In this document: positions 13,810 through 58,052 of the stretch, in pieces | How the letters are laid out: every line of letters starts with the position of its first letter | Position numbering within the stretch: position 1 is the stretch's first letter | From: Darksidea phi | Lineage: Eukaryota; Ascomycota; Dothideomycetes; Pleosporales; Lentitheciaceae | Direction: 5' to 3' | NCBI GenBank assembly: GCA_030770425.1 | Contig: JASJFT010000003.1 | Coordinates: forward strand, 372,001-436,000 | Length of the DNA stretch: 64,000 bases | Notes under the pieces: model-generated | What the model saw: the letters and a program-made list of their open reading frames with translations, nothing else | The model's database searches: none | What the model was told of the DNA's origin: nothing | Translations under genes and position numbers: made by a program

Positions 13810-16800
13810 TCACTTCATAAGTACTTCACCGTCTTGCACAATCTCGATCCCGCGTCTCATTCTTCCATCTGGAGCCCTGAACCAGCCCAATCTGGTTTTG
13901 ACATCGGCGCCAATCAAGCCTTGCACGCCATGCTCTCTGAGAGCCGCCAACAGCCTCTCGCTTCCGGCGACGAGAACTAAAGTGTCGGCAATTGATTCGA
14001 TATTGCGATCTAGTTCCTTGAATGTCTGCCGGTGCAACGCCGCAACGATGAGCACCGTGAACACCAGCCAGCAGAGAATAACCAGACACACCAAGAAAGC
14101 CTCACGATTCATGTCCAGCATTTCGACGCGAGTGGTCATGGTGGCAGTCGCTGTGGGCTCCGTGTTTCGAGGCGGCAGATCTTCCACTTTGACAGCTGGT
14201 TTACCTCCAGGCTGAATCTGACGAAAGGTACCATTAGCGAATCCGCGGAGATCTTCAATCTTCGCACCGGTTGGTTGAAAAGCCCACCCTCCGGTCTCTA
14301 GAGAAACATTATTGCTGACATAGTGCTGAAAGAAGAGCGAAAATGTTGCCTCCGAGCGGCGCATCAGAGAATCCTGGTCAAGTAGCGCGGCGGCATCTTC
14401 TCCAGCTCGGACATAGGATGCATAAGACATAAAGTCGAGGTTAAGGCCGGTCAAATTGTTTCGGATATTGAAGACATTATCTGCCAAATTTTCGGCAATC
14501 CCATAGCCTCGCGTCGCTCTTGGAACATTCAAAGACATGAGCCGCGATGCGCGCAGCAACGCCTCAGTAAAAAGTATACCGTAGCTGGGATGGCATTAGC
14601 TCAAACTGAGTGTCATGGCCACTTTACTTACCTGGTGGTCACATTCTGCGACGCATAAGAAATTTTCTCCGTATTGTACATTCTGTTCGAGCTAGACGTC
14701 AATTGTGCTTTGAAGTCCGGGTCGTTTGGATCATACGGGTCGTGGAGCACGAAGTTGTCACTCCACGCGCCATCCTCGGGCACGGCGTCCTTGAGTATTG
14801 TGAACGAGTGCACACGCTTCGTTTGCTTGTCTACCGTAATTTCGGCCTCCGAACTCTCAATGATCGGCATACAATTCAGTGATTGTAGCCTTGTGGCGTT
14901 TCGGAAGATTATTGGATCAAATGAATCCCCTGCATAATAACCGAAGCCGCCTTCTCCATGGATCCATTTGATCGTGAAGTTTCCATTGTCCCCGGTCACA
15001 GATTCTTCTCCATAGCGCTCACCAAAATTGGGCGTCCAGTACCCTACGGCAAGCGACATTGAAAGATTCTCCATCCGCGAAGGTTCCGACTGATTAAAGC
15101 AACATTGCATATACTGGCCGTCAGGTGCGATTGGCGTCGCATAGTTCAAAACTTCTGAAAAATTGAACTTCCAAAGAGAAGGAAGTTCACTTAAGTCGGT
15201 AGTTTTATTCGCCAAATCGGTGTAGTTGTAAGAGTACGGCTCGAGCCACCAGGACGTGTTAGTCACGTCACTGGTGGGATTACATTCCAGGCGGGCGCGT
15301 AACGCCGGAGTTGTGACAGTGATATTTATAGCGGAGTAGTTTTTGAACGTATCCTGGAAGTCTGAATCGCCTTGCTGGTGTGTTTCCCGCAGGGTATCAA
15401 CCCCAGAAAGGTTCAATGGAACAAAGCTCCAACCATCCTTGGACCATGGTGGCTCCGAGCCATTCAACGTCGCTTGGATGATGGCAGAATACATCCAGTT
15501 CGTCGTGAGGTTCGTGTACAAATTTTGTAGTGTGGTTCTTACATAAATGGAGCCCATGGAGATGCTATCATCGTCGAGACTGGGCGGGTAAGGAGTGTCT
15601 TCGAGCACCAAGTGGGGAGCCTGACGTATTTCAAGGTAGCGATCTAGAGAAATTTGACTCTGAACCAAGCCAGTGTTTAATTCAAACAATGCGGACATGG
15701 CAATGATGACTGCTGTATGTCAGTGCCCGAAAAAGCTCACTCGTGCGCCAAACTTACAAGCTTGTGCCAGGAAGGTGCCTAGTGTCACGAGTGCAAGTAA
15801 CCAATGATTGTTTTTCGCAGCCCTGGATGATGCCAGCAACCAGTGGGACGATTGATATGAGACACCAGCACCGCGTGCAACCTTGATGGGTGCCCTGGAC
15901 ATGGCGAGATATGGTTGGAGTGATCGAAAGGACTTGTCCATACCATTCCACCATAGACCAACCCCGATACCTAGAACGGTAGGAATGATGGAGAAAGGAG
16001 TAAAGCTGCCGAATGCATCGGAGCTGACTCGGTAGGTGAACAATCCTTGTCGTAGACTCGATCTTGTAGCGAAACGATGGACGACGGCGAGTGCACCTAG
16101 AAGAGCCACAAGGTACAGCAACAACCCCACGAGCGTCCATATTTTGAGACAAAGGGGGCTTTGATCCGGTTCTTTTTGGGGGGATCTGGACGTTAAGTCT
16201 TGAAAACTTGTCAGTGCAAACAGCGTGTCATTTGGCTCAAGGGCTTACCAATGCCTTCCGGCTTACTATGCACAGAATCCTTGTGGAGCACGCCGGGCGA
16301 GGTAGAGTATACATTTCCCCCTAGTGTGGAGATTAGTTCCTGCGCTGTTGCTTGATCCAGACCGCGCAGTGAAGATAAAATCTCCGCGGAGTTGGTAACG
16401 AGGGCCGCAGTGCCCAGTACGGTAGCCGGATCATGCACCAAATTGAGCGGTCTTTGTGTAAGTCGAGAAAACCAAGTGATGTACACCAACATGAGGAATG
16501 ATATAAAGAAGAGGCTCGCCAAAAGAGCAGCGGCCTCTACGCTCACCCTCACTCTTCGCTCGAAATGTGCATCCTCGCCTGGGATATTTTCGGTTTGTGA
16601 CGCTCCTGGTGCATCGATTGAGGACCTCAGAAGCTCGCTGAAGAGCCGGCGTCTTACATGAGCAGCCTTTTGGTCTAGCTCCTGGTCTTGCAGCATCAGT
16701 GTGGCATTGAGACCATGCTGTGTTGCCAGTAAGGCCGCAAGACCATGCTGTGGTGCCAGGAAGGCCTCAAGACCAGAACCGTCGTTTTCGCCCCCCATAG

Positions 16801-18355
16801 AGGCCAGGGTTGGAATATACCCGTACCACTTGGGCTCGGTAGAGATCCGCAAAAGGTCGGTGAGATTCATGAGTTTCTCGGTAACGGCAGATTTGACATC
16901 GTGAAATCGCGTTTCGTCAAAACTGACGCTGAAAGTTGTTTCAGACACAGATGCATCCACATCTATAATCGCTGTTGAAACCTCCGAAGAGCACATATAG
17001 CCTCTGCTGGTCATGTTCGAGAGAAATTGAATCGTCCTGTTTGAATCTGAATAATCATAGTCCGTCCATTGGGTATTTAGGATGATCGCTTCGTCCCCTT
17101 GGCACTTGTCGTTTGCCAATGGGTGGGCATACGTTTCAAGGTCAGGACTGTAGAAAGAATTCTTGTAGGCGATATGGTTTGAGTCAGTCCATGAGATGAG
17201 CCATTTATTGGAAATAGAATCGGCCACACTTATGTTGTATTGGCAACCATTCAGGCCATCAAGGCGGACCGAAGCCATCAGCGACGAATCAGAACGTCCA
17301 GGGAGGGCTGCATTTACCATATCGGTTGCGGCAAGGCTCAATTTCGTGCATTTGAACTCGTTATGGAACACGGTGGTTTCCGCGCGCCAATTCCGTGGGG
17401 CTTGAAGTGATGGGCCGTTCCAGACAGCGTCTGGGTTATCCATTGGCCAGAATGGCAGGACAGCGTACTCATTGGAAATCCAAGGGGAGGTGGTAACATC
17501 TTGCAGCAAGGCCGCCATGGTCCGGAAATACATGTTTCTGTCGTCGACGAGCTTCAGAGGCTCATCCTGTTTTGGAACTAATCGAGCCATTTCAATCTGT
17601 CGCGAGACGCGCATAGTTTGAACGTCGAGCAGCGCCGAAGACAGGGGCGAAATTGCCAGGAAAGCTAAAACGTAGACAAGACATGTCATAATGAGAACCC
17701 AGCTGCGTTTACCACCATTGCGCTTCTTTTGAAAACCGAGCGTCAGTGTGATCCACCAAGCTCTTGGTGTCTCTAGGATAGTACGTGAGGCGTTAGGAAT
17801 GCTGCCTGCAGGTCTCGCCATGCGCGCAAAGGGCTCGGTGCGCTTGACATCATCAAACAAAATGGTCGTCAATTGCGTGTAGATCACAGCAATGAGGGTT
17901 GGAACGAACTTCCACCCGAAAATCGCGGTCGTCGCGGGACCTAAGCCATTGTTCTTTTTGGAATACCAGTAAAGCAACATAATGACGAGTCCGCATATCA
18001 GAGCAATGGCTGTCGGGACCCAGATGAGATACGTCCGAAGGGTAATAGGAAGCCATTGTGCATCTGAGCGTAAGCGTTAGAGTAGCAATGCACAAAGCAC
18101 TTCAAACGTACCATCATAAGCTACTTTGCGGCGGCTACTTGTAGTTGAACTCATTGAAGCTTGTGTAATGTTCCTGTCGTTGGACTTCAGATCGAGGAGG
18201 CGTTGCGCCGAAAGAGACGGTGAAGAAATGGGCGGAATATCATCTCGCGCGTTTGGTCGCAGAGTATCCCTTCCTGAGTCCGATACATCGGAGATAGCAG
18301 ACAGCGACCGCGTGTCCGAGAGCGAAATCTGCTCGTATGCTCCCCGTCCACTCAT
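13810..18355 (-). CDS. DUF3433 family multi-pass membrane protein
   Basis: Five exons on the minus strand, 18112..18355, 16249..18063, 15758..16198, 14632..15712 and 13810..14584, join in consistent phase (introns 45-50 nt, GTACGT/GTAAG donors) to give 1451 residues. A Ser-rich cytosolic N-terminus (about 80 residues) precedes paired hydrophobic helices, then a long luminal or extracellular loop with many Asn-x-Ser/Thr sites, more helices, and a second copy of the same helix-loop-helix pattern from exon 3 on. This two-fold layout is the hallmark of DUF3433 proteins of ascomycetes, whose function is not established. The last helix (Val-Cys-Leu-Val-Ile-Leu-Cys-Trp) sits about 95 residues from the end. 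There is no enzyme motif. The gene is complete and shows no disabling change. Confidence 0.85.
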
Positions 18356-18947
18356 TTTGACGTTGATCGTAGAGGGCGCGAAGAATGAAGGCTCAACAGG
18401 ACATGGCAGGCGTTAAAGGTCCGAAGTAGAGGCCGAACCTTAAATCAGTAGACCAACTCGGGCGTATCTGCATGAATATAGCCGCTCGTCCTGTTTAGGC
18501 CCACAGCGGCTGACGACAAGCACGGTATTTTACGCCCCGTCATCATTTGACCCCGGCGGGCCTCCAGCTCGAAAGCGCCGAAACCTGTGAAACCAATGTT
18601 CGCATGATGGAGACGGTTGTGGTAAAGTTGCGATCCGTCAAAGGGTGGTATCGGCAATCAAGCGACTGGGTGGCGCTGCGCCAGATCACGTGCGTGCCAA
18701 CGTTCCAAGGTTTTCCGGGTCGAACATTGAAACCACCTGGCATCTATCACCACATTCTAAGCGTGGCGTTGAGTTAGGTAGACATTCACCTTGGTACGGC
18801 ATATTTACTACATTATGTGAACCGCAACGGTTTTCAGGCACAATCTTCAATCTCATAAGACGGAGTTGATTGCATCTGACCCGAGGCTGACATTCGCCTG
18901 ACCTGCCCTGGCGTTCGATCTTTGATATTATGTAGCGCCTTAAGGCA
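18356..18947. other. Intergenic upstream of the DUF3433 gene
   Basis: No coding frame with family resemblance was found. The part next to 18355 is the likely promoter of the DUF3433 gene. Confidence 0.45.
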
Positions 18948-19120
18948 AGCAGCCTTGCGTGGACTAAGGTCAACTCTCTAAAGGTAACCTCTTCGCCATC
19001 CTCCCAAGTATGCGAAAGAATTGCGTAGGGAGGGATAGAGTCATCGCCTACAAAGTTCTTGGTAAGGCTCAAATCGCCAGTATTACTGCGTAGCAAAAGA
19101 CGTATTGCTACCAGGGGATT
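18948..19120 (-). pseudogene. Truncated HET-domain gene fragment
   Basis: A minus-strand frame reads Ile-Arg-Leu-Leu...Ser-Leu-Thr-Lys then Ile-Pro-Pro-Tyr-Ala-Ile-Leu-Ser-His-Thr-Trp and Glu-Val-Thr-Phe. This is the conserved opening of the heterokaryon-incompatibility (HET) domain. The expected start Met-Arg-Leu-Leu is replaced by Ile-Arg-Leu-Leu (ATA for ATG). The following HET blocks (Lys-Ile, Gln-Ala, Trp-Val-Asp-Thr-Cys-Cys-Ile) do not follow in any frame. It is therefore a 5' remnant, not an active gene. Intact HET domains mediate cell-death reactions during non-self fusion. Confidence 0.7.
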
Positions 19121-19612
19121 GGGCGGATACAGGTGGGAGGAATAGGGTCTCGGAGGCTCAACGTGGCAGCCTAGGTAAAACGAGCACGGCAACTTGCTTG
19201 TCTGAGAACGTTAGTCCTACTTCTAGGGGTTAGCGCGCATATAAGGAAATAGGGATATTGAGCTTTACTAAAGGATCGCATCAAAAAGTGGGATAGAGTG
19301 CAGTAAGCTGATTCTACTGTGCGTTGGCCTATTAAGGGAGGTTGAACAGGCTCGGCTCAGCGCGGGCGGGGCTGGTTGCACCGTCAGTGTGGCGCAGTAA
19401 GGCTGACATCCGGTGTTAGCAGAAGGCGATTTTGCAATGCACCAAACTGAAGTGGACGAACACCTTGATGACGCTAGCAGGGAGGATGGCTGAACCGCAC
19501 CTGCCATAGGGTTGTGAGGTGGCGAATTCTGTAGATGTTTTCAGAAAGTTGGTTGACCGGAGGCATGGCTGAGATTGGCCCGCTTGCCGGCTAAGCCAAG
19601 CTGCTCGAGCGC
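19121..19612. other. Decayed sequence upstream of the transposase remnant
   Basis: No intact frame. Because the transposase tail follows at once, this stretch may be mutated transposon sequence, but I could not read a DDE catalytic domain in it. Confidence 0.3.
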
Positions 19613-19870
19613 ATGGCAGCACTGAAAGCACGAATCTCAGAGTTAGAATATCAGCAACAGACTACATCCTCTACGAAGAAGCGCAAGCGAATTACTATTG
19701 ATCAGAATCGGGGGTTTGCTGATATCGAGGATATCAGGCGTGCTATGGATCAGGCAGCTGCTTCAGTCGTTCAGGTCTCTGCATCTATTGAATCAAACAC
19801 TGCACAAAATAGTGAAAGGGCAGCTGATATCCCTAAATTCGAATATATGTGCATAGAGTGGCAATTATAA
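19613..19870 (+). mobile_element. Remnant of a pogo/CENP-B-type transposase (C-terminal coiled region)
   Basis: The frame reads Met-Ala-Ala-Leu-Lys-Ala-Arg-Ile-Ser-Glu-Leu-Glu, then a basic Lys-Lys-Arg-Lys-Arg block, then Arg-Gly-Phe-Ala-Asp-Ile-Glu-Asp-Ile-Arg-Arg-Ala-Met-Asp-Gln-Ala-Ala-Ala. That order (short coiled coil, basic patch, Ala-rich helix) is typical of the tails of fungal pogo-like transposases. No DNA-binding or DDE domain remains, and no terminal inverted repeats were recognised. Confidence 0.5.
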
Positions 19871-20491
19871 TAGAGCGTTGTTGATTCTGGCGTCTTTTCT
19901 GGTGGCGGCTGATTTTGGTGAGGTCGCACCAGGCAGTCGGGAGCATCAGTATCGGGCATCAAAGCGGGAGCTAGGGAGGCAGAACGCAGAAAATCCTGGC
20001 TAGCCGCACTTGGATTGTCGGCTAGATATTAGGTTCAGAGCCCCTCGAGCATAGATCTGCCGAGAAATGGTCTTCCTGTCGCCAGGCAAGTAGGGTTCAG
20101 TTTTGAACCTGCTTATGTAATACCAACACAGAACTCCTGCACATGCAAATCCTTTACTTTGAACTTTGTAGCTACAAGGAGTTTCACATGCCTTATAAAA
20201 CTTCTGGTTGAGAACGTGACAGTGACGGAGACGATGGGATTTGCTGCAACCTCGTTACGCATTGCGTGCGCCAAGACAATACCCCGCAAAACCAACACGT
20301 CCTACATATATGCCTTCGTTCTGCATCTTTCACTATCTTATCAACTTGCATCAGATATAGTATCAATTAGTTACAATGTAGGGTTGGCCCCATCACTACT
20401 CTTCACTCTCCACCCTCCTATCCAACTCGCACGCTATATCTAATCAAATACCAGGAACACAATACTTGCAGCTCCGGAGCAAAGCGATGCG
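19871..20491. other. Intergenic upstream of the C2H2 gene
   Basis: No gene is supported. It holds the promoter of the zinc-finger gene. Confidence 0.4.
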
Positions 20492-21658
20492 ATGCTCACA
20501 ATTTGCACGACCGCTACAGAGACATTCTCTTGTCCTGAATGTCGCTTGCAATTTGCGGAACAACCGACCCTCGAAGCTCACCAGCGCGACAGCTTGCATG
20601 CCCACTGCTACAATTGCAACGTAGCATCGAGTACGAGACAGCTTCATGCAGCACACATGCAATCGCATTCCCCTGCCTGGGCGGCAACTCCATCTGTTGT
20701 GACACAATTTCGGTGTTGCAACTGTGAGCGCGATTTCAAAGACGATGTGGCACTCGCGAATCATCTTCGCAGTAGCAAGGTACACAAACCAAAGACTGGA
20801 GGTAACAAGAAGAGAAAGAAGTCAAAGCAAAAAGACAAGCAGTCAAAGCAAGTTGAGAAAGGTGGTGTTAGATTCAAGTGCAAGATATGCGACAAGACTT
20901 TCCAGACTCAGCATGCGCTGGGGCAGCACTTGACATCTATGCGACACAACCCCCTGAGCGACATTCAGTGTCTAGCAGATACGAGCTGTAAGAAGCGGTT
21001 CAATTGTCCGTCGGGGCAGTTGCAACATCTTGAAAGTGGGAAGTGTGTGTCAGGAATGACAAGGGCAAAGTTGAACGCTGCTGTTGCAGTAAATGATACC
21101 GCAGGAATAATAACAACAGGAGGAGACGGAGCGGTGGAATGGTCGCTAGACACTTTGTCGGTGACTTCAAAATCGCCATCGCAGATCGGGAGTCCCATAC
21201 TCACCCCCACCTCTACCGAATTCTCGGATTCATATCCACCCTCTGCAGTTCGTACACCAACATCGACCCTTCCAACAGGCACAAGCTTTTCTTTGATGCT
21301 TACTTCTTTGCCCCCAATTCGAAAGGGCTCTAAAAGATGCCCTCTGTGCCCGCCGTCTAGCCCTCGTCAATTCAAGCCCAACGGACTTCGGCAACATCTG
21401 TCATCAAGCGTTCATGCACAGGTGTCAGCGCATTTATTCCCACCAATGCCTAATAGGATCTCATTCCATTGTCCACGCCCCTTGATGGAAGGAGAGAGTG
21501 AGAAAGCTGTTAAGCAGTTCTCGACTGTAAGTGGTCTGGCGCAACACCTTGAGAGCGGTGCTTGTACAGGCGGTAAGGGAACCCTGAGGCGTGTAATAGA
21601 ATATGTACAGAAGGAAATGAAGAAAATAGGGTTGGGAGAGCTGAAGTTGGTGAAATGA
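20492..21658 (+). CDS. C2H2 zinc-finger protein
   Basis: A single-exon frame of 388 residues. At least three fingers of the Cys-x2-Cys...His-x3-5-His type can be read: residues about 13-34 (Cys-Pro-Glu-Cys...His...His), 75-97 (Cys-Cys-Asn-Cys...His...His) and 128-150 (Cys-Lys-Ile-Cys...His...His). Two to three degenerate finger-like units lie later (Cys-Pro-Leu-Cys...His...His near 285). A strongly basic Lys-rich stretch after finger two could serve as a nuclear localisation signal. Residues 195-265 are Ser/Thr/Pro-rich and probably disordered. Fingers of this JAZ/U1-like spacing can bind DNA or RNA. A transcription or RNA-binding role is inferred. The gene is intact and stands alone between transposon relics and the amyloid locus. 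Confidence 0.85.
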   Translation: MLTICTTATETFSCPECRLQFAEQPTLEAHQRDSLHAHCYNCNVASSTRQLHAAHMQSHSPAWAATPSVVTQFRCCNCERDFKDDVALANHLRSSKVHKPKTGGNKKRKKSKQKDKQSKQVEKGGVRFKCKICDKTFQTQHALGQHLTSMRHNPLSDIQCLADTSCKKRFNCPSGQLQHLESGKCVSGMTRAKLNAAVAVNDTAGIITTGGDGAVEWSLDTLSVTSKSPSQIGSPILTPTSTEFSDSYPPSAVRTPTSTLPTGTSFSLMLTSLPPIRKGSKRCPLCPPSSPRQFKPNGLRQHLSSSVHAQVSAHLFPPMPNRISFHCPRPLMEGESEKAVKQFSTVSGLAQHLESGACTGGKGTLRRVIEYVQKEMKKIGLGELKLVK

Positions 21659-22680
21659 CGACAGAAATCTCTACCGATTCATTCACCGGTAAAGCTAGGC
21701 TTTATCATGAACGATGGTACCTTTGCACTGTTTGTTCCGGCGTTCACGTAGTTCAATGACAGAATGATGGAATCTAGCCGGACCCACTGCCTAACTATAT
21801 ACGGTTTGCCGTTACTGTTCAAAATGGGTTGTGATAACCGAGATCGTAGCAGGAAGGCCTTTTGCCGATAGATGAACACATAATGCATGCGCGAGTCCGC
21901 CCTCATCTCATGAAAAGAGCAAATAATGTCACATTGGGCGCATGCGCTCGCATCACGACAACAAAAGAGGCACGCACCCCAATGCGATGGAGTTTTTGGT
22001 GCAATCTTTTAATTAGCGCTCGTGGTGGATGCCAACCAGCCAATCAGCACCGTGGAAAGGGGTGGTGGTGGTGAGGACGACACAGAGAGCCAAGCGTCCA
22101 GGAATAGCCGCCCATCAAGAACACCAAAACACTAACCGAGGGGTCGAAGACAAGACATTCCGGCGTTCAACAATCAGGTACGCGGCCGTCATTGCAACGC
22201 ATCAGTCCTGTGCATCAGCGCGCAAGCGACAAGATCTGATCAAACTACATAACTACGCTGTCAGTTTTCACATCTGATCTGAACGGCCCTGGCCAGCGTG
22301 CTCACTAAGATCGATCGTCGCACGATCTGCATACTGTACCGCACAACTGCATGTTAGTACACCCTGGGGACAATACGTAGGAATGCATTAGCTCCAAGAA
22401 CTCTATTGAGACTTTACTACAATGCAGGACCAGTCACTTGCAAGAGCCACGACAAGTAGCAAAGGAACAGCCGCATAACTCTGTGCTTTAGTCAACGAAC
22501 CCCTGACACCTGCCTGTGCAAATGCTTTATCTAGCATCGCGCCCTCCATCTACCTACACACGATAGAGCCGAGGTAGACAGGATGACCGATCATACTGTG
22601 CTGTAAAAACGATTAATTATAGAGTGACCACTGCACAACGGTAAATAGGAATTGGTATCTGCTACCAAAGTATTCATTCG
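21659..22680. other. Intergenic, no gene seen
   Basis: About 1 kb between the convergent C2H2 gene and the SesB-like gene. Frames are short and lack family signal. No tRNA or other RNA structure was recognised. Confidence 0.45.
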
Positions 22681-24192
22681 TTACGAAAGATTGAAGTTGG
22701 TCGTACCCCCAGTGACTTGCGTTCCGGGTATCACATTGTGACCGGTGATGGGAGCATTGAATACAGGTCCGCTGTACAAAGTCCCTCCACGGTCGCTCTC
22801 CGTGACGCTAGTAGGCTGAAGAAGGCGCTGTTGTTGCCTTTTTGCGGCATCTTTCTTTTCCTTGCACGCATCTTGGCTCTCTTCAACCATATTATACCAG
22901 AGCCAAAGCCGGTCCTGTACTCGAACATAGCCAGCGTCCTTGGCAGTTTTGAACTTTGTCATCCCTGTGTGCGTTGCGTGAATGCCGTTGTTTGGATACG
23001 CGGTGAGGATCGCTGATTGCTTCGGTACTATCTGCAAGAGCTTAGCACTTGACTTCACTTGTGGAAGGGAGTATCGAATACCTCGCCTAGTCCAGTGTAT
23101 CCAAGTTCTTCGTAAAAGCAGAAGATGTCGATATATTTGCTACCGTTTCTACTTCGGTCGTCAAGCATGGTATGGAACTCTTGTTGAACCGCGGCGAGCA
23201 TCTCAGAGCCTGGCTGCAAGACTCCTACAATCTCAGAGTTGGTTTTCCGTAGCAGATTTGAGAGCTTTGAGATTGGGTGTCCCCAATTTGCAAGATTCGC
23301 CCCGAGGTGTGGTGTGCCCATGAACGCAATCGCCACCGTGCTTTCAAGCAAGTCCTTAACATGCTGCTGGGCCGAGCCGCGAGAGACAAGAAGTGCCTGC
23401 CTAGGTGTATTAGTAGACTAGCGACGAGTGATTATGTCGGTGCTTGACCCGCCTGCTCAACGACTAACCCACCAAGGCTGTGCGCAATGAATATCAGAGG
23501 GCGAAGGTTCTATCACTTGAGTCAGCTTGGTGACCAACTTCCAACGACGTGTGTCGGCTACTATAACGACAGCTCTTTATGGCTGCTTTAACTTGCATGG
23601 AACTCTAAGGCAGCCACTACTGATTATGTGTCGACGACACTCTTGTATCGATAGGGCTATTGGTTCCCATCATCGAGAAGTTCGAGCACGATTTGTCGTA
23701 AATAGCGTCGGAGAAAGTCTCACATTATCTGTCTTCTTCCTCCGCATAGCCAAATCCTCGGCCAAAGCTTTGCCGTGGTCTCTTAATGTGCCGTTTCCAG
23801 CTACGCTCAATCCTCGAATGATATCGGCATCGTAGCCAAACGTGATAATTCGCGCCTTTGGGAGATCTTTTGTGAGAAGATCCTTCGGCCAGAATACCTC
23901 AGCGGGTTTGTCGGTCCAAGTGGATTCGCGGTTACCGGTTAGACCGTGGACGAAAACAATGCTGGCTTTGCTGGTTAGAGAAAGCCAATGAGTCATAGCA
24001 CACTACACACTCGATAATGTCACCAGCGTTCTCGGACAACGTTTGAAGACCATAATCTCCGACCGTTGAGAATAGTTCCTCTGTTGGCGCGTTGGAAGAG
24101 GCATTCCGAGAATCTTCGTTGCCTTGACCCAGTTCGGTGCCCGCATTGGTATGAGGCGCTGATCGACTTACTAGCCTCCGAAAGAAAGACAT
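22681..24192 (-). CDS. SesB-like alpha/beta hydrolase with C-terminal sigma amyloid motif (putative cell-death effector)
   Basis: Five minus-strand exons (24011..24192, 23724..23970, 23453..23509, 23082..23396, 22681..23031) join in phase to 383 residues. Introns are 40, 214, 56 and 50 nt. The third must use a GC-AG boundary to keep the conserved Leu-Val-Val-Glu-Gln-Ala-Leu-Leu. The lipase-like fold shows Ile-Val-Phe-Val-His-Gly-Leu-Thr-Gly (oxyanion region, about 65), the nucleophile elbow Ala-His-Ser-Leu-Gly-Gly (about 152) and Phe-Met-Gly-Thr-Pro-His-Leu-Gly. A late His near Asn-His/Thr-His-Thr-Gly is a candidate for the triad. The last 27 residues match the sigma motif: Ile-Thr-Gly-x-Asn-Val-Ile-x-Gly, then Gly-x-Thr-x-x-Asn. 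In the ses system such motifs assemble as amyloid when templated by a receptor. The matching receptor is the adjacent divergent gene. Cytosolic, with no signal peptide. Confidence 0.85.
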
Positions 24193-24391
24193 AGTGCAAA
24201 TTAGCAGAGATAGTGATAGCTACAGGAAAAGCTCATCACCAGAATCAAATCGGCTGGTGTAGAACTGTAAGACTGCAAAACGTGGTGGGGTAAGGCCGAG
24301 CTGCCTCAGCTGCCAAGCGCGGACCGCACCACAACGGTTCATGAACTGCAACATGTATGTCTGCGTCCTGCACCGCTGTTTGAGAGCGAAG
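24193..24391. promoter_or_regulatory. Shared divergent promoter of effector and NLR
   Basis: Only 199 bp separate the two start codons, so both genes must share regulatory DNA. No clear TATA box or known operator was recognised on either strand. The compact head-to-head layout suggests joint expression. Confidence 0.7.
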
Positions 24392-26767
24392 ATGCCGCAA
24401 TCCAGCGACTTCAATGGAGCTATTACTGGCCGCAACGTCATTGCTGGCTCGAGCTTCGAGACTGGCGCTACCATGAACAACTACTTCGGCCCCGTAGTGC
24501 AGGGCAGGTCTACCACGGGAGCGAAACGAACATGCACATCCACACTAACGCCGGCGCGCAGATAGACTGAGCCGAAAACACGAGCCCTTCTCCACCGTTC
24601 CGTTCGCCCCGGACCCTGATTTCGTCGACCGGCCTGAGATCCTCGCGTGGATGCGCGACAAGTGCGCGAGACCGGGCGCGCGGGCGGCGCTGGTGGGCCT
24701 TGGCGGGGTAGGGTAAGTCAACGTCCGACCGTCTCTTGTGTACACGATCACAGCGCTGTGCTAACGGCGTAAAGAAAGTCGCAGCTCGCCATCCAGTACG
24801 CCCACCGTGTGCGCGATGCAACGCCGCCTACCTACGCCTTCTGGGTGCACGCGAGCACCCGGGCCCGGTTCGAAGAAGCGTACAGAGGCCTTGCGGACAG
24901 GCTGGAGCTTCCTGGGCGACTCGACCCGAAGGCGGACGTCTTACGACTAGTCAGCAACTGGCTGTGCGATGAGACAAATGGACAATGGACGATGGTTGTG
25001 GACAACGTTGACGATGTTGAGACGTTCTTCCCATCGCGACGGCGCGAGCAGGACGGCACCGTTGGGAGCTCGGCAACATCGTTGGCAGCTTACCTCCCTC
25101 AAAGCCGCAACGGATCGATATTGATCACGTCGCGAAGTAGAGATGCAGCAGCTAGGCTAGCAGGAGGCTACCACAACATTAAGGAGGTGCTTGCAATGGA
25201 CAAGAGCCAGGGCCTACAGCTTCTCCGCAACAAGCTCTTGGTCACGTCAAACGAAGAAGGTACTGCCATGGAGCTGCTGCATACGCTTGACTACATGCCT
25301 CTTGCCATCACCCAAGCTGCTGCCTACATCAACCGGCGAGCGCGCATGACGATAGTAGGCTACGTAGACGAGTTTCACGCGAACGACAAGCGGCGAGAAA
25401 GCCTGCTCAACCAGGACGCAGGTGACCTCCGCCGAGACGAGAGCGCATCGAACTCGGTGGTGACGACGTGGCAGATGTCGTTTGAGCGCATCCGGCAAGA
25501 GAGGCCGTCGGCTGCAGAGCTGCTGTCGCTGATGAGCTTCTTTAACCCGCAGGGGATTCCTGAGAGGACGCTGCGGAGGTACAACAGGACAGCAGCAAGA
25601 GTGGGCGCGTCAGATAACGAAGGTGAGGCTAGCCACACCTTTGACGAGGATCTTGACACTCTGCACGCGTATTCTCTCGTTACAATGACAACAACGACAG
25701 CAGATAAGGAGATGTGGGAGATGCACGCTTTAGTGCAGTTCTGCACGCGAGTGTGGCTGTCGTCGTTCAGCGAGGCGGAGTGGTGGAAGGGCGAGTTTAT
25801 AGAGCTGATGGCGCAGGAGTTTCCTAGCGGGGAGTTTGAGAACTGGACGCAGTGTCAGCAGCTGCTTCCGCACGTGGAACCGCTCTACGACGCTAAGCCA
25901 GGTTCTGAGCAGTTGTCAAAGGCATGGGCGCAGGTGCTTACAAATGCTGCGTGGTATCTATGGACGAAAGGGAGGTATCAGACAGCGCAAGCAGTAGCAA
26001 CAAAGGCGGTCACAGCTAGAGAAGGTGTGTTCGGGTTGAATAATAGCCAGACACTGACAAGCGTTACCGTCTTAGCGTTGGTACTGCGTGGTCAGGGGAA
26101 GTACGAGGAAGCAGAGAAGCTAAACCGGCGAGCGCTAGAAGGGAGGGAGAAGGAGCTAGGGGTACACCACCCTTCTACGCTAACGAGCGTGGACAACCTA
26201 GCGTTGGTGCTGGGTTATCAGGGGAAGTACGAGGAAGCAGAGAAGCTTCACCGGCGAGCGCTGGAAGGGAGCGAGAAGGAGCTAGGGGTACACCACCCGC
26301 ATACGCTGACGAGCGTAGACAACCTAGCGTTGGTGCTGCGTTATCAGGGGAAGTACGAGGAAGCAGAGAAGCTTCACCGGCGAGCGCTGGAAGGGAGGGA
26401 GAAGGAGCTGGGGGTACACCACCCTTCTACGCTGACTTCTGTGTCCTGCCTTGCTCACCTTTTACACACACAAACGCGCTATGCAGAGGCTGCACAGCTG
26501 TACCAACGAGCATACGATGGGTGTGTACAGAAGCTCGGCCCTCAGCACCCAAAGACCATGGCTTGCGGCAACCACTTCTCAGCGTTGCAGCAAGAGGTAA
26601 AGCAAGCCGCGCTAGCGGATAATCAGGACCTAGCTCCACGTGACGAAGAAGCTATCGTCAACACTACTCGTGCCGAAAGTGCGTTCGCACGAGCAAGTGG
26701 CAGGCAGAAAGACAAGCGAGACTCATTTTTGGCGCGCATCAAACAAAGGATGCGCCGAAGAGATTAA
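24392..26767 (+). CDS. NLR: sigma motif + NB-ARC + TPR repeats (putative amyloid-signalling receptor)
   Basis: Three exons (24392..24507, 24566..24712, 24775..26767) join in phase to 751 residues. Introns of 58 and 62 nt both carry CTAAC branch sites. Residues about 6-34 carry Phe-Asn-x-x-Ile-Thr-Gly-x-Asn-Val-Ile-x-Gly, then Gly-x-Thr-x-Asn, matching the effector's C-terminus. The NB-ARC ATPase follows: P-loop Gly-Leu-Gly-Gly-Val-Gly-Lys-Ser (about 83-90), Walker B Val-Val-Asp-Asn-Val-Asp (about 160), Ile-Leu-Ile-Thr-Ser-Arg (about 200), and Met-Pro-Leu-Ala-Ile (about 260). From about 505 come kinesin-light-chain-type TPRs of 42 residues, three almost identical. In known fungal NLRs the repeats sense a ligand, the ATPase oligomerises, and the N-terminal motif nucleates amyloid. 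I chose the ATG at 24392 because upstream Mets precede a non-conserved leader. Confidence 0.87.
26085..26460 (+). repeat. Near-identical 126-bp TPR-coding repeats
   Basis: Three consecutive 126-bp units, including the GTACGAGGAAGCAGAGAAGC and GGGGTACACCACCC blocks, are almost identical in DNA as well as protein. They encode the 42-residue TPR unit Tyr-Glu-Glu-Ala-Glu-Lys-Leu...Arg-Arg-Ala-Leu-Glu. Older, diverged TPRs flank them. Identity at third positions shows recent duplication or gene conversion. Confidence 0.9.
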
Positions 26768-27268
26768 GAACACGACACAAACAGTTGTATATACTTAACT
26801 AACTTAACTTACTAATGTATTGTCTGAGTGCCCGCTGCATCATACTTGTTATAAGTGCTTTACACGAGTTATAAATTACATAGTATACATAATAAGTAAG
26901 TCCAGTTCGTGCAAGGATAATTAATTACTGTTTAACCCCTGCGTAGCGCTAATACCAACCTAGTAAGCGTCTCGTAAGATAACCGTGCGCTGAGAACAAA
27001 CGATGTGCAAGAACCGGAAACCGATTCCGGCCACTACTGTATCTGTAGTTTTCCTGTTGTTGAGCAGACCCCTCGAGTGGTCTGTGCTTGGAACCTCCCC
27101 AACGTATTAGGGAGCCTTCTGATATTACGTTATTAGCTATTCGCCCAACTTACGTTAAACTTTATAGTATTTATCCCTTAACTCGGATAGGTACAAAAGC
27201 CGGTTTACGGGGGGCGAGTCCTAATAAAATTAAAATATAGCCGAATAGAGCGCGAGCTTTAAAGTATA
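26768..27268. other. AT-rich intergenic stretch
   Basis: This 500-bp stretch follows the NLR gene and is rich in TA steps, with no readable frame. It may be mutated repeat sequence. Confidence 0.4.
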
Positions 27269-29710
27269 CTAGGTCCTAATAGAGGAAGAATGGTATGCGC
27301 GGTCTACTCGCAGCATGCGGGCAGAGACGCCCCGCGAAGAGCAGACTTTTTTAACAGCCGCGAGAGCGTCGACATTTCCAGATAATGTTGCACTCGATGA
27401 AGCATTGTGAGCAGCGACGAAGACTTTTCCTAGAAATTGATCTGTGTTGCAAATGTTCCGAGCCTCGCTAGCGCTGCAGCCAACAGCCATCATTGAGGTC
27501 TGCTGCTGCGCATCTGCGGGTATTCGCGACACGGCTTAACCTCTATAGTAGGCTATCTGAATTGCGCCTTCTGCAGATATACAGCGAGCGGCGTATGCCT
27601 GGGACTTATTAGTTCGCATATTTGACCATAAGCTGCCGGCTTACCGCTGCCATTTCTCCGCTACTATGCCCAACTACTGCATCGAAGTGGAAGCCGGATT
27701 CGTAAAGTAAATCTACAAATCTGGACAGCAGTACAGAGCGGCTGTGAGAATTTCGGTTGGTGAACTCTGCTTTCCTGGTGATTTTTGCCAAGTTCAAGTG
27801 CAATGCTCCACTCAGGTGGTTGCGGCAGGGCCTGGAGGCATGCGTCCAATTTTCGGATCGAGTTTGCGAAAGAAGTGCAATGGGAGATTAATGTGCGTCC
27901 CATTGACGGCCACTGCGCACTTGTTCAGTGAAGATCCCAAGGACACGGTGAGAAACATTTGGTTGAGTTGTCATGGTAGGTGCTGCACCTAGCTTGTGTT
28001 CTTCGAAGGACTGGATCCACTCATCCGTCTTGTGCAGCAAATTTTTTTCTCGAATTTGCGACGAAAGCAGCCCGATAAGGAAGCAACGAGCGGTGATTCG
28101 AGAGCATTGAAGCTAGTGATGACAGATCGATAGATGGGTTCTTCAGAAAGAAATCGTGATGCTGCTGTATTATCGTTCGAAGTGTTTTCAGCAGCGCTGC
28201 GGAAAATACGAAAGTCCCACGTGCGCTGATGGGTTCTTCCGCAGGGCAGGAGCTTGAGATGTTTTCAAATGACGAATCCAAAATAACGTATGAATTCGTT
28301 CCTCCGAACCCGAAGCTGTTGACGCATGCTCTACGTGGCGTTTCGGCAGGCAATCGCGGCCAACCGTGCGATGTCGTGGGCACGGTCAAGTGGCCATAGA
28401 ATGGTATGAGAGTCTCGTTCAACTGATCGAAGTGCAGATTGGCTGGAATACGGGACTGCTGAATAGCCAATGACGCCTTCAGGAGTCCTACTAGGCCAGC
28501 GGCGCCTTCGAGATGTCTGACTACGGTCTTCGCAGATCCCACGAACAGGTTATCTTCACCTCTATCCCTCGAAGGTACTTGACGAGACCAAAATACTGAA
28601 TGGATCGCCTCCGATTCCGCTGCATCACCAGCCTGTGTACCGGTACCATGCGCCTCGAAGTATTGGCATCGGTCGGTTGGGAGCAACGGGTCTAACCCTG
28701 CCCGCTCAAAAGTCCTCCTAATAAGCTCAGATTGGCTCGCATCTGATGGAATTGTGATGCCCGGTGTTCTTCCATCTGAGTTTACCCCGGTTTCGCGAAT
28801 GATAGTCTCGACATGATCGCAACGAAGCAACGCGTCTTCTAATGTTGTGAGGATGACAACGACAGCACCCTCACCTCGAGCATAACCGTCCGCGCTAGCG
28901 TCCCACATCTTGCAATGCCCTTTTGGCGAGAGCATATGAAGACTAGAAGTCGCCATAAACATCTCAGGTCCAAGGATGAGATTACGCCAGCCACGATAGC
29001 CGTGTCGCACTCACCGTTCCGCAAGCTCTGTACAGCTAGGTGGACTGTGACTAAACTCGATGAGCAGGCAATATCTATTGTCATAGAGGGGCCTACATTG
29101 AGAAGAACAACGTCAGCCAATGTTCTTTTAGGGATTTCAGTCAAGCAAAGATCCTTCCCTTGCTCACTTTCTCGCGGGAGTTTACTTTATACGCCATATT
29201 TACGTACCTTTCAAATCGTAGAAATACGATATTCGGTTGGAGAGGATGCTTCGCGCAGTCCCGGTTGCATGATATTGCGAGGTGTGCAAAAAATCTCTCG
29301 CCTGTATGTCGTAGTAGTCTGCGCCCATCAGGCCGGCAGAAAACACCCGTTCTAGAGCCGGGAACTGATTCCATCCGATATCCTGCCGACTCCAAGGCTT
29401 CGTATGTCAACTCCAAGAGCATACGCTGTTGCGGGTCAATCACCTCGGCCTCTCTCGGATGAATACCAAAGAATCCAGCATCGAACGTCGAGAGATCTTC
29501 ATCCAATAGGTATGCGGACTTAACATTAGAGGTTCCATGGTGCTCAGGCTGCGAGTTGTAGAAGGCGGTGGCATTGAATCGTGATGGAGGTATCTCCCGT
29601 CGAAGATCTTGAGGGTGTTGTAAGAGATCCCAAAATTTGGAAGGCGATGAAGCTCCTCCAGGCAGTCTGCAGCTGCTGCCGACAATAGCTACCGGTTTGG
29701 TGGTCGCCAT
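27269..29710 (-). pseudogene. Degenerate KS-AT fragment of a reducing polyketide synthase
   Basis: The frame opens with Met-Ala-Thr-Thr-Lys-Pro-Val-Ala-Ile-Val-Gly-Ser-Ser-Cys-Arg-Leu-Pro-Gly, the KS start. It contains Asp-Pro-Gln-Gln-Arg-Met, the active-site Ile-Ala-Cys-Ser-Ser-Ser, Glu-Ala-His-Gly-Thr-Gly-Thr and a changed third motif (Thr-Val-Val-Arg-His-Leu-Glu where Asn-Ile-Gly-His is expected). An intron at 29093..29207 still splices cleanly. Single-base frame changes occur near 29340 and 28990, and several more in the AT part, where Gly-His-Ser-Ser-Gly-Glu-Met is still readable. DH, MT, ER, KR and ACP domains are absent. The gene therefore cannot make a working synthase. It is head-to-head with the enoyl reductase gene. 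The product of the original pathway cannot be told. Confidence 0.88.
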
Positions 29711-30078
29711 TATCGCTTTGACGAACACGTAGAGCCTCGTACGAGGTCAGCCCACAATAAGGTGATATGATGAATCAACAGCAAAGGCGTTCTATGCAGC
29801 AGCACCATCATGTAGAAATACCGCGCCGGCGCAGTGGCTGTGATCTGTGGCGGATTGGAGCAAAGGTCCGATGGCTAATTCGCCGAAGGCACCGCAGTCA
29901 CACGCGGTGCAACTCAGAAAATGGAAACCGACCAATTTGCCTAACTGCCGAGTAACACGTTGATATCCTTGGCACAACGAGCCAACTTTAACGCAGAAAG
30001 GGGTCTGGCGACACATTCGATTTGGACAGCCGTGTCAAGATTCGTTCGCTCCTGAAGCCTACAGTAAACGCGTTCACA
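29711..30078. promoter_or_regulatory. Divergent promoter region of PKS relic and trans-ER gene
   Basis: This 368-bp spacer lies between two divergent start codons. It contains GC-rich spots but no motif that I can assign to the cluster regulator with confidence. Confidence 0.4.
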
Positions 30079-31239
30079 ATGGATCTGTTGCCAGCAACGC
30101 AGAAAGCCCTAATTGCGACAATAGACGGGAAATGGAAATTCGATTCGGAGTCACCTGTACCATATCTGAAGGATGGCGAAGTATTGGTCAGAGTAGAGGC
30201 TGTGGCACTGAATCCATCCGACGCGAAACAACTCGATAATTGCCCAATTGATGGCGCTATATGTGGAAGCAACCTAGCGGGCACCGTGATGAGAATCAGA
30301 AAAGGTATGAAAAAGGACCTAAATGTCGGTGATCGGGTTTCGACACTTATTTTGGGATGTAACCCACGACGGCCGGACAACGGAGCATTCGCGCAATACG
30401 CTGCAGCAAGAGCGGAATTCTGTATCAATTTGCCAGACACTTTCTCATTCCTGGATGGCGCGACAATGAGCGTGGGATTGGTCACCTGCGGACTGGCTCT
30501 GAAATCTTTGGGCTTGGTTGATGAAATGGCGGAGATCAATGTGACCGTAGACAAGAGCAGCGCATACGTTCTCGTGTACGGTGTCTCAACAGCAACCGGA
30601 ACATTAGCGATCCAATTGCTTCGCTATCTTGGATACTCTCCTATCGCGGTGTGCTCTCCCCATAGCTTCGTCTTGGCTAAAAAGGCGGGCGCGGCGTGTT
30701 GTCTGGATTACAAGAAGCCCGGATGCAGCGATGAGATCCGCTCAATTAGTGACGGAAGGCTTGAATGGGCGCTGGACTGCATCGGCACCCCAACTTCGAC
30801 AACTTGCTGTTACAGCGCTATCGGAAGCATGGGAGGAAGATATACGGCTTTGAACCCAGTTCCTAACCGGCTGAGACTAAGAAAGAAGAAGGTACGACCA
30901 GATTGGATACTGGGATACACCATCTTTGGGAGCGACGTGAAGCTGAGCGAGGAGTATGCAAAGGAAGCATCGTGCGAAGATGCAGCATTCACGGCGGCAT
31001 GGATAGCGAGAATGGAAGCTCTGCTGTGGCATGGCCAGTTGCGGGCGCACCAGACAGTACCCCAACCTGATGGACTTCGCGGGATCGCGCGAGATAGAGA
31101 GCTGCTAAAGGCATCTCGGGCAAGAAGCTGGTGTACATTTTGCAAGACATGTCGGCAGCTAAAAGGGAATGAGATAGCAGTTCAGTTGCTTCAAGTGGTT
31201 GGAAGTGACGCGGTTAGATCTACAGCTATGAAAACTTGA
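30079..31239 (+). CDS. Trans-acting enoyl reductase (LovC-like), C-terminus frameshifted
   Basis: A medium-chain reductase of about 386 residues. Family landmarks in order: Val-Arg-Val-Glu-Ala-Val-Ala-Leu-Asn-Pro-Ser-Asp near 35, Gly-Ala-Phe-Ala-Gln-Tyr-Ala near 110, Val-Leu-Val-Tyr-Gly-Val-Ser-Thr-Ala-Thr-Gly (NADPH loop) near 175, Ala-Val-Cys-Ser-Pro-His-Ser-Phe near 205, Ala-Leu-Asp-Cys-Ile near 240. These enzymes reduce the enoyl intermediates of partner polyketide synthases whose own ER is inactive. The conserved end (Ser-Gly-Lys-Lys-Leu-Val-Tyr) lies in the +1 frame just after about 31110, so one base has been lost and the protein runs on with a non-homologous tail to 31239. Activity may be reduced or lost. 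The ATG at 30079 is preferred over a longer non-conserved start at 30022. Confidence 0.8.
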   Translation: MDLLPATQKALIATIDGKWKFDSESPVPYLKDGEVLVRVEAVALNPSDAKQLDNCPIDGAICGSNLAGTVMRIRKGMKKDLNVGDRVSTLILGCNPRRPDNGAFAQYAAARAEFCINLPDTFSFLDGATMSVGLVTCGLALKSLGLVDEMAEINVTVDKSSAYVLVYGVSTATGTLAIQLLRYLGYSPIAVCSPHSFVLAKKAGAACCLDYKKPGCSDEIRSISDGRLEWALDCIGTPTSTTCCYSAIGSMGGRYTALNPVPNRLRLRKKKVRPDWILGYTIFGSDVKLSEEYAKEASCEDAAFTAAWIARMEALLWHGQLRAHQTVPQPDGLRGIARDRELLKASRARSWCTFCKTCRQLKGNEIAVQLLQVVGSDAVRSTAMKT

Positions 31240-31613
31240 TTCACCGAAACGATCTCTTGCAGAACTTCAACGTCTATATGTACAGATTCAAATTTCGCCC
31301 GTCGTAAATCCAGAGACTATGCGAGCTTTCTACATATACAGGAGCAGCAAAAAAAGCCTACAATACAAGTCTATGGAAAGGGGGGTACAATTAGAAGAAA
31401 TTCTGCTGTTTAAAGCTTCCTTGTTCAGTTGTTGGGCTCTAGCGAAGACAGCAGTAGTACCAGAGATAGAAATGAATACAAAAAGTTTCTTTTCGAACTG
31501 TCGAACTTCAATGTGGTCTCAACACCCATCGTATAACTAGATGCGTTGTACTAAACTTATAGATTGCATATGTATGAAATCTCCATGAGCCATGACGGGT
31601 TGCTATGGCTACT
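31240..31613. other. 3' flanks of convergent genes
   Basis: A short spacer between the converging trans-ER and EthD-like genes. No gene or RNA is supported. Confidence 0.5.
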
Positions 31614-32174
31614 CTAGAAGTTGATGATTTCTGCCGACTCTGTGCGTTTGCTTGAATCGCCTGCCTTGATGCACTCCGCGAATGGCGGATACAAGCTCTC
31701 GCCATTCTCGACATTGACAATCTTCCCGTCCTCGACGTATACCTCCTCCCATCCCGCCGTCACCGTTGCCCTCGCTGGGTCAACCACCTCATCATCACCC
31801 GCAATGAGCGCCTGGAAGTCTGGGTCCATGACAATTGCCATCATGTTCTCCGTCGTACGAATGTAGACGCTGATCTGACAGTCGTGGTCATCGACCTTCC
31901 AGCCCGGTCTCACAGCCCAAGGGAGCTTCTCCTCTATGAGCCTACGGGTGGCGATTGGGGTGTGGTACTGGATGCTGATCAACTCTTGCTCTTTGCAGCG
32001 GCGGAAGAGCGATCTCACCTGAGTAACTCGGACGGCGCCATGTCGCGTCTGGACGAGGGCGGCCTTGGGGCCGTGGAACTTGCTACCGTGCTCGTGGAAC
32101 CGCTCTTCAGAGACGTCGGCCTTCTTGTAGCGCATTGATGTCAACTTGAAGACGATTTCCTTGTGGGGCGCCAT
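31614..32174 (-). CDS. EthD-domain protein
   Basis: Two exons, complement(32019..32174) and complement(31968 excluded; 31614..31967), are separated by a 51-nt intron (GTGAGA...CCAG) that is open in frame. Splicing restores the family segment Arg-Val-Thr-Gln-Tyr-His-Thr-Pro. The product is 169 residues. EthD-like ferredoxin-fold proteins are short, dimeric and common in polyketide clusters, where relatives act as decarboxylases, cyclases or dehydratases on aromatic or polyketide intermediates. Visible landmarks are Phe-His-Glu-His-Gly-Ser near 27, Pro-Gly-Trp-Lys-Val-Asp-Asp near 80 and Asp-Pro-Asp-Phe-Gln-Ala-Leu near 105. It has no disabling change, unlike its neighbours. Cytosolic. Confidence 0.78.
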   Translation of the reverse strand: MAPHKEIVFKLTSMRYKKADVSEERFHEHGSKFHGPKAALVQTRHGAVRVTQVRSLFRRCKEQELISIQYHTPIATRRLIEEKLPWAVRPGWKVDDHDCQISVYIRTTENMMAIVMDPDFQALIAGDDEVVDPARATVTAGWEEVYVEDGKIVNVENGESLYPPFAECIKAGDSSKRTESAEIINF

Positions 32175-32799
32175 GGTATGATGAAGTTCTAGACGCGGTC
32201 AAGGTAGGCTGAGTGAACTTTGGATCTGTGGATTGGGCAAGCTTGAGGATGCCCAGCATCCGTGCCGCGTTCTATATCTTCTAAGCAACTACGCCGCTCA
32301 CGCCACAAGTCCGGCGCTTTCGGGTACTATGGCCGACGAATACTCCGGGCATTGTTCGAAAACCCCGCTGTGATGTACTCTGGCAGGATGAGAATGCGAC
32401 TGCATATACGATGAATCCCAATGAGCTAGTTGTCGGGTGCCGGAACGGTCGAGCTCTGCAGCGCCGATATTTTGCAAAATATTTTAACAACGTGTTACGC
32501 GCTCTGGGGGTATTCGCTTTCCATGCTCTCCTCAATATCTGCTACATTCTCTATCAGGGTTCTACGCTGATATAATCTCCGGTCTGAGATGCATGTCGTA
32601 GAAAGAAAATATGCGGTGGTTTGCCAATTCAAAAGCCCCTATATTAGCCCGTAGAGCTCCTTGTTCAACACCTTTCGCGATCCATATCTCTTTCTTCGCC
32701 GCATCCATATGGCCAAGCGCTCCGTACATCTTCTCGATGTTGCTGTACAAGTCAAAGTATAACGATGTTGCAGCCCTAGACACTAGAGCGGGGCGTTGA
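32175..32799 (-). other. Spacer with unassigned coding-like fragment
   Basis: A minus-strand run from about 32820 to 32562 reads as plausible protein (Leu-Tyr-Phe-Asp-Leu-Tyr-Ser-Asn...Phe-Tyr-Asp-Met-His-Leu-Arg-Pro-Glu) and ends in a stop, like the C-terminal end of a lost cluster gene. I do not recognise the family. The remainder shows nothing. Confidence 0.35.
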
Positions 32800-57187: not shown

Positions 57188-58052
57188 TTAGCAACGTTGT
57201 CAGGTGGGGAGACGGGCGAAGGATAGAACGCACTGGTGACGTATTCCACGCTGTCGAGCCAGAGGGTAATTTGAGCGAGCCAAGCTGGCCCCATAAGGAC
57301 CTGTAATTCTCGCAAGATGTCGCAAAGCAATGTGGTGAGAGAAGGTGATGGTTGGTTCTATTTGTTTTAGTGTTGTTTGGCACTGCCAAGAGGCGGGGTG
57401 GCTTGTCACATTTGCTAACCAATTAGAGCACAGCGCATTTCCGAGTCACCGCAGCGATGTTTCTTGTAGTCAGGCTCATGCCCGGGACCGGCGACCTACG
57501 AGTCTGTAAGTAACAGCAGCACAGCCTACCGTCTTAATCAAGGGCTAAGAGGGCCATATAGTATTAACGCCATTTTTACCAGGGCGTATGATATAGGCGA
57601 GCGCAGCAACAACATTAGAACGAAAATCGGGACAAAATAATAATAGGAAGCAAGCGGGAAAATATGAGTTTACTTACCCAATTTGCTAGCGCGTCGCTAA
57701 GATTGTGATGAATATTATAAGACGGATTGATGGTTAACTCTCGGGAAGGGTGTTGATGACCGTGTTCTCAAACCAAGACAGATAACCTGTCCGCCCGAAA
57801 TGCGCACTCTAGCGAAGATTCGAGTATAGCTTGTATATCCGCGCCGTTTCACCCGCTGTGTCACCAATATGCACAGGGCCTACGAAGCCCAGCTCCATAG
57901 GCCCAGAATCCAGCTCGGCATTGACCGTATGGACAGTACCACTGCTCACCGGTTAGCATGCACCTGCTACCCCGCGCTTTGTCAGCCTTGCAGCAAAGCA
58001 AGGCAGTCTCAACACTTTGCTCTACCGGACTCTTTTTAGGTTGTCTTTCATC
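57188..58052. other. Intergenic, divergent promoters
   Basis: Lies between the divergent PD-(D/E)XK and STAND-N/UBL genes. No gene is supported; the centre is AT-rich. Confidence 0.45.

Follow-up and report, generated by a model that had tools for sequence, protein, structure and literature searches.

The window analysed here (the whole stretch of 64,000 nucleotides, positions 372,001 to 436,000 of contig JASJFT010000003.1 of the ascomycete Darksidea phi) carries a head-to-head pair of genes: HYD1 (24192-22681, minus strand), encoding a SesB-like alpha/beta hydrolase, and NLR1 (24392-26767, plus strand), encoding an NB-ARC/TPR receptor, with start codons 199 bp apart. A motif of 26-27 residues is common to the C-terminus of HYD1 and the N-terminus of NLR1. 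A preliminary description, made from the same letters, had reported a divergent pair with matching motifs; our gene models and a motif profile search bear out this core observation, including the head-to-head layout. The host genome (51.35 Mb, 477 contigs) has intron-containing genes; among the matches listed, most of those closest to the pair come from Dothideomycetes. Database relatives are given by P-numbers and contigs of this genome by C-numbers. The features of the pair, in window positions, are as follows.

22681..24192, minus strand: HYD1, SesB-like alpha/beta hydrolase gene (380 residues), modelled against its paralogue on C241
24192-24011, 23961-23724, 23509-23453, 23396-23082 and 23031-22681, minus strand: the five exons of the HYD1 gene model
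23462..23485, minus strand: nucleophile elbow AHSLGGLV with Ser151 (Ser in 99/102 aligned relatives)
23397..23452, minus strand: HYD1 intron 3, with a GC donor (GCGGGT) where the paralogue on C241 has GTGAGT
23103..23117, minus strand: FYEEL with Glu255 (Glu in 104/104 aligned relatives)
22960..22977, minus strand: ATHTGM with His285 (His in 103/104 aligned relatives)
22684..22776, minus strand: effector-side motif YSGPVFNAPITGHNVIPGTQVTGGTTNFNLS at the C-terminal end of HYD1 (tail profile E 1.2e-22)
24193..24391, no strand: intergenic region, 199 bp between both start codons, a presumed shared promoter
24392..26767, plus strand: NLR1, NB-ARC/TPR receptor gene (751 residues; exons 24392-24507, 24566-24712, 24775-26767)
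24392..24507, plus strand: motif exon of the NLR1 gene model
24410..24490, plus strand: receptor-side motif FNGAITGRNVIAGSSFETGATMNNYFG, NLR1 residues 7-33, from the profile search
24508..24565, plus strand: NLR1 intron 1 (58 nucleotides), with a CTAAC branch-like site and a weak donor, GTCTAC; its junction RLSRK matches annotated relative P0176
24713..24774, plus strand: NLR1 intron 2 (62 nucleotides, GTAAGT..AAG) of the gene model
24775..25757, plus strand: NB-ARC and DUF7779 part of NLR1 (Pfam)
26073..26436, plus strand: TPR array of NLR1 (repeat analysis: 126-bp unit, 2.9 copies, 92% matches)

The SesB-like character ascribed to the effector holds: HYD1 is a DUF676-type alpha/beta hydrolase (Pfam E 2.8e-8) with an HSLGG elbow at Ser151 and with His285, the probable catalytic histidine, while Glu255 would by inference supply the acid of the triad. 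Its closest relative among the matches listed is P0001 (87% identity over 100%), whose AlphaFold model combines a confident hydrolase core with a predicted local distance difference test score (pLDDT) of 45-55 across the last 40 residues; such low confidence would fit an unfolded switch and proves nothing. The top Foldseek matches were serine hydrolases and thioesterases (E 2.4e-8), though with template modelling (TM) scores of just 0.39/0.53.

The NB-ARC/TPR receptor likewise stands, the 751-residue model matching TPR_12 (1.6e-55), DUF7779 (9.7e-9) and, below the Pfam cut-off, NB-ARC (9e-4). NLR1 is not among the listed matches of an NB-ARC search of the genome, and its TPR part resembles, by sequence, kinesin light chain in the PDB. 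A frameshifted NLR1 was considered and rejected: motif exon and NB-ARC exon differ in frame, which is read as the effect of an intron whose junction agrees with annotated relatives. An alternative intron at 24494-24584 was not preferred, as it leaves a shorter linker.

In this subfamily the motif has the consensus FNGxIxGRxVIPGTxxxGGTxNFNF; it is rich in G, N, T and aromatics, with few charges, and the tail is conserved across records from three fungal classes. The relatives seen were the best 120 of 858 hydrolase matches and the best 120 of 1674 receptor matches. A tail profile was built from 14 hydrolase tails from database records, picked by eye among the listed relatives with the window excluded, and run (threshold E 1e-3) on the N-terminal 80 residues of three receptors of this genome and of the 120 receptors listed. 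It matched 44/123 receptor heads, namely 41/120 listed database receptors and all three of our own (E 2.2e-6 for NLR1, 5.5e-6 for NLR2 and 3.1e-9 for NLR3), so the claimed correspondence between effector C-terminus and receptor N-terminus is recovered with foreign tails. All 41 database matches fall among the 47 listed receptors with 25-150 residues ahead of the PFSTVPF linker, six of which do not match; the others start less than 25 residues before the linker (10), have no linker by pattern (53) or have a long N-terminal part (10). None of 968 tiles, 120 reversed or 2400 shuffled control pieces matched, the best control reaching E 0.009. On the hydrolase side, 24/120 listed relatives carry a tail of the HYD1 type, 14 of them being the profile seeds, and a profile-profile comparison (hhalign) of hydrolase tails with receptor heads gave a probability of 99.0 (E 2.4e-18).

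At least two other tails recur on listed SesB-like hydrolases, SGGGAIFMGNVxAGRDFTYN and QHGDGNRQFNNFGTGTQKN (for instance P0006, P0007, P0009, P0010, P0013, P0016; P0105, P0111, P0114), and these are perhaps further motif families. A genome search with a typed blend of the other tail types gave no match and was run without a positive control.

The pair is conserved elsewhere: in Talaromyces amestolkiae, P0003 (BHQ10_009463) and P0129 (BHQ10_009464) have consecutive locus tags, which give their adjacency and leave their orientation unseen. In Tricladium, Zopfia and Melanomma, hydrolase and receptor lie on equal-sized contigs, adjacency itself not being seen. A contig of equal size in the same species as a listed receptor was found for 4/24 tail-bearing hydrolases vs 0/96 others listed (Fisher 0.0013; 118/120 listed receptor contigs counted). 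The annotation of P0003 omits just the catalytic-Ser exon; the GC donor, if shared there, would explain the omission.

The same motif recurs in this genome. A second head-to-head pair, on C241, bears it in both genes. At a third receptor/effector locus (C14:40640-43883; L024/L056) the effector retains the tail and lacks the catalytic half, and a lone hydrolase tail fragment whose matched stretch is interrupted by an in-frame stop (C223:675864-676142; L014/L055) lies ~280 kb from the window pair. A fourth receptor with the motif, on C238 (L066 1501-1590, minus, and 1852-2073, plus), stands head to head with a fragment of 74 residues that looks like the beginning of a HET-domain protein and then gives way to unrelated sequence. 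Finally, C467 encodes at 335.4-336.6 kb (L057 760-1956) an open HET-domain protein in which a motif of the window type follows the HET domain; it also has an acidic tail and is possibly a HET effector wired in trans by the motif. In the available parts of the literature searched (PMC3321046, PMC9815663, PMC5485727, PMC8086366, PMC12261475, PMC12881547, PMC12258605, PMC10197012) no HET-domain effector sharing a motif in trans is described. Looking for more motif-bearing HET proteins yielded five candidates, none of which scored; because a region of 55 residues supplies so few words, this outcome is uninformative. Altogether, at least five sites on the effector side (HYD1, HYD2, the C14 fragment, the C223:676 kb fragment and the C467 HET protein) accompany four on the receptor side (NLR1, NLR2, NLR3 and NLR4).

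The pair is probably a two-component cell-death switch, in which the oligomerised receptor would activate the hydrolase by amyloid templating, as has already been proposed for SesB/HET-eN. Directly observed here are the domains, the conserved residues, the matching motif, the layout and linkage, and the conservation of the pair; the course of events is modelled on NWD2/HET-S and HET-eN/SesB. Once its kinesin-light-chain-like TPRs sense a cue, the NB-ARC receptor would oligomerise, and its clustered N-terminal motifs would take up a beta-arch/amyloid fold. The neighbouring hydrolase would then have its matching C-terminal tail templated by this fold; clustered and switched on in this way, it would harm the cell through its Ser-His (Glu) esterase/lipase activity.

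Several observations weigh against this switch, and some of them favour its rivals. The NB-ARC match of NLR1 is sub-threshold, and the GC donor of HYD1 intron 3 and the weak donor of NLR1 intron 1 leave the modelled splicing unproved. The same two donors, together with the truncated sibling loci (C14, C223:676 kb and the HET fragment on C238), speak for a decaying locus in which one gene has no working product; but all modelled exons are open, the catalytic and P-loop residues are retained, and a P0003 annotation short of just the Ser exon is what a gene finder might leave given a shared GC donor, and we hold decay to be very unlikely. That the two ends resemble each other by chance or low complexity, as their G/N/T-rich composition might suggest, is rejected by the profile controls, and the conservation of the tail in three classes leaves it next to no probability.

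Co-variation within pairs had been set beforehand as a refutation test, and raw similarity did not pass it: across six pairs, motifs are no more alike within pairs than between them (permutation P 0.26), and the HYD1 tail scores 81 and 78 with the receptor motifs of C14 and Zopfia vs 51 with that of NLR1. This lack of pair-specific similarity, with so many effector-side and receptor-side sites in one genome, would suit a network that is not one-to-one, in which NLR1 signals to HYD2 or to the C467 HET-domain protein as much as to HYD1. Against such a network, which we consider unlikely, stand the hydrolase-receptor linkage that recurs in other species and the subtype of the receptor motif, GATMNNY-like or GGTxNF-like, which tracks the hydrolase clade in the six pairs (4 and 2, with the C14 fragment placed by eye), too few to test firmly. 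Finally, the motif could act by homotypic interaction, bringing receptor and effector together with no amyloid fold involved. It matches none of the described amyloid-motif models compared, yet its composition, its length and its position at two termini are as in published amyloid signalling motifs (PMC3321046), and a non-amyloid motif is quite improbable.

The history of the pair appears more intricate than its layout. HYD1 belongs to a seven-row set of the hydrolase tree (SH-aLRT, the Shimodaira-Hasegawa-like approximate likelihood ratio test, 100) with P0001, P0002, P0003, P0004, a metagenome row and HYD2. P0001 and P0004 are from Dothideomycetes, P0002 from Leotiomycetes and P0003 from Eurotiomycetes, the class labels of all four having been checked. 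Their catalytic parts are 94 (P0001), 93 (P0002), 91 (P0003) and 91% (P0004) identical to HYD1, vs 69-62% for five hydrolases (P0006, P0007, P0013, P0016 and P0019) whose tails differ from that of HYD1 (21-38% identity). Because of this tree and these identities, horizontal transfer of the hydrolase between fungal classes seems the simpler explanation, a possible alternative being that the hydrolase evolved slowly and was lost many times. A second hydrolase clade (P0047, P0051, P0063, P0066, P0077) bears the HYD1-type tail with only 48-50% catalytic and 48-77% tail identity to HYD1. Since tail type and catalytic identity thus disagree between clades, the tail has either followed a history apart from that of the enzyme or been lost repeatedly.

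The receptor looks chimeric, its motif exon and NB-ARC having different kin. Over its first 33 residues NLR1 shares 78-85% identity with receptors of Talaromyces and of four Leotiomycetes (Scytalidium, Bisporella, Venustampulla and Tricladium) and just 39-52% with seven other receptors. Its NB-ARC, by contrast, is closest to those of Zopfia P0121 (92%; its N-terminus is missing) and Lentithecium P0122 (85%), with 66-71% identity to the five receptors just named. A careful NB-ARC tree puts NLR1 in an 11-row set (100/99) apart from these five, and a single NB-ARC group of all six is rejected (approximately unbiased test, p 4e-76), the set having been defined by motif type after a quick tree had been viewed. 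The 44-residue linker (82-86% identity to the five, 86-95% to the seven) leans to the NB-ARC side. Because the motif exon goes with the five and linker and NB-ARC with the other side, we infer an exchange point between motif exon and NB-ARC near intron 1; and because HYD1 groups with the Talaromyces and Tricladium hydrolases, the effector seems to have a history in common with the receptor motif, and the receptor body a different one.

Two receptors disturb this clean picture: Zopfia P0125, inside the clade of the five, bears the other motif type (GGTxNF), and NLR2, with a GATMINY motif, sits on a long branch elsewhere in the quick tree. Convergence of a short motif under selection could replace shared descent, but the likeness of NLR1 reaches beyond the motif core (MPxSS start). 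Retention could also replace exchange, if the motif type of NLR1 goes back to the ancestor of its NB-ARC clade, with losses elsewhere. Among the listed receptors P0122 is the only member of that clade whose motif N-terminus matches and can be compared, and P0125 has the GGTxNF type, so exchange may have run in either direction and more than once.

We tentatively propose, with somewhat more doubt than confidence, that, by virtue of their head-to-head layout, effector gene and receptor motif exon form one exchangeable cassette, which may have moved across fungal classes and been rejoined to another NB-ARC/TPR body near intron 1, the same motif family also running HET-domain (TIR-like) effectors in trans besides SesB-type lipases. 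If so, a new sensor would acquire a functional motif and its matched effector at once. PMC3321046 asks what keeps the genes of receptor and effector linked and proposes that motifs act as portable units; the window locus, in which effector and receptor motif have seemingly one history and the receptor body another, is a concrete case for that question. Beyond the preliminary description, the analysis adds the cross-class hydrolases, the apparent chimerism of the receptor and the HET-domain motif carrier elsewhere in the genome, a candidate effector wired by such a motif. The 24 hydrolase tails and 41 receptor heads among the listed relatives are a resource for this motif subfamily.

Around the pair, G+C content is 57% over the receptor gene (24000-25999) vs 48-53% in the remaining kilobases of 16000-33999. 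Pieces of a polyketide synthase ketosynthase lie downstream of NLR1 (28021-29746, minus strand), and 18686-19210 (minus strand) resembles the start of a HET domain (IPPYAILSHTW), for which Pfam gave no HET match. An open reading frame (ORF) at 57957-58670 (plus strand) with PF17111 (PigL_N; Helo_like_N in PMC9815663) may hold a further NLR-type effector domain. Starship cargo was rejected as a setting: DUF3435 captain matches number nine in the genome and none on C223, the contig of the pair.

Among described systems, the s locus of Nectria haematococca (SesA/SesB/HET-eN) is similar in that a SesB-type hydrolase with a C-terminal motif adjoins a NOD receptor with an N-terminal motif (PMC3321046; PMC5485727), and het-eN also has an intron near its 5' end (PMC3321046). 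In its sigma motif, A (GxGxQFNxx) and B (GGTQNINT) units are repeated three times (PMC3321046); the length is given as 25-27 residues there and as about 40 in PMC5485727. At 26-27 residues the window motif is within the shorter range; unlike sigma it is no three-fold repeat. By eye, it has one B-like unit, which reads GGTxNFN in effectors and GATMNNY in NLR1, and the A unit is present weakly, only as GxVFN. The name 'sigma-type' given in the preliminary description is not confirmed, as the three-fold repeat is missing. Hhalign against the tails of P0105/P0111/P0114 gave probabilities of 0.1 percent (tails) and 0.4 (heads), from a small alignment judged sigma-like by eye. Pfam NACHT_sigma (PF17106) was not reported at E<=10 with weak matches filtered, nor was it for five sigma-like proxies. 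The locus further differs from the s locus in that no SesA match was found among 19 window ORFs of >=230 residues, and NLR1 from HET-eN (NACHT/ankyrin) in being NB-ARC/TPR, a version of such NOD receptors mentioned in PMC3321046.

PNT1/HELLP/SBP is similar in that its putative lipase, SBP, stands under an NLR and has a motif in common with it (PMC5485727). Unlike that system, the window motif does not, by eye, contain the PP pattern FxGx(x)NxGLQLxGxNxGxL, and the PP model Ses_B of Pfam was not reported for the window proteins at E<=10, with weak matches filtered and no positive control run. NWD2/HET-S of Podospora anserina (HRAM) shares the divergent neighbouring genes, its receptor N-terminus templating the effector C-terminus; its effector is a HeLo protein and its motif is doubled (21 residues), whereas the window has a hydrolase and a single motif. 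NLR1 is also of the same NB-ARC/TPR family as all-in-one receptors that carry HET (P0147, P0152, P0193) or PF01048 (PNP_UDP; P0198, P0230) fused in cis, in contrast to the separate, motif-linked effector of the window. The motif subfamily is possibly described in the motif tables of PMC9815663. Judged by sequence, the pair is a variant of an already known class of fungal NLR/effector systems with a shared short motif and adjacent genes.

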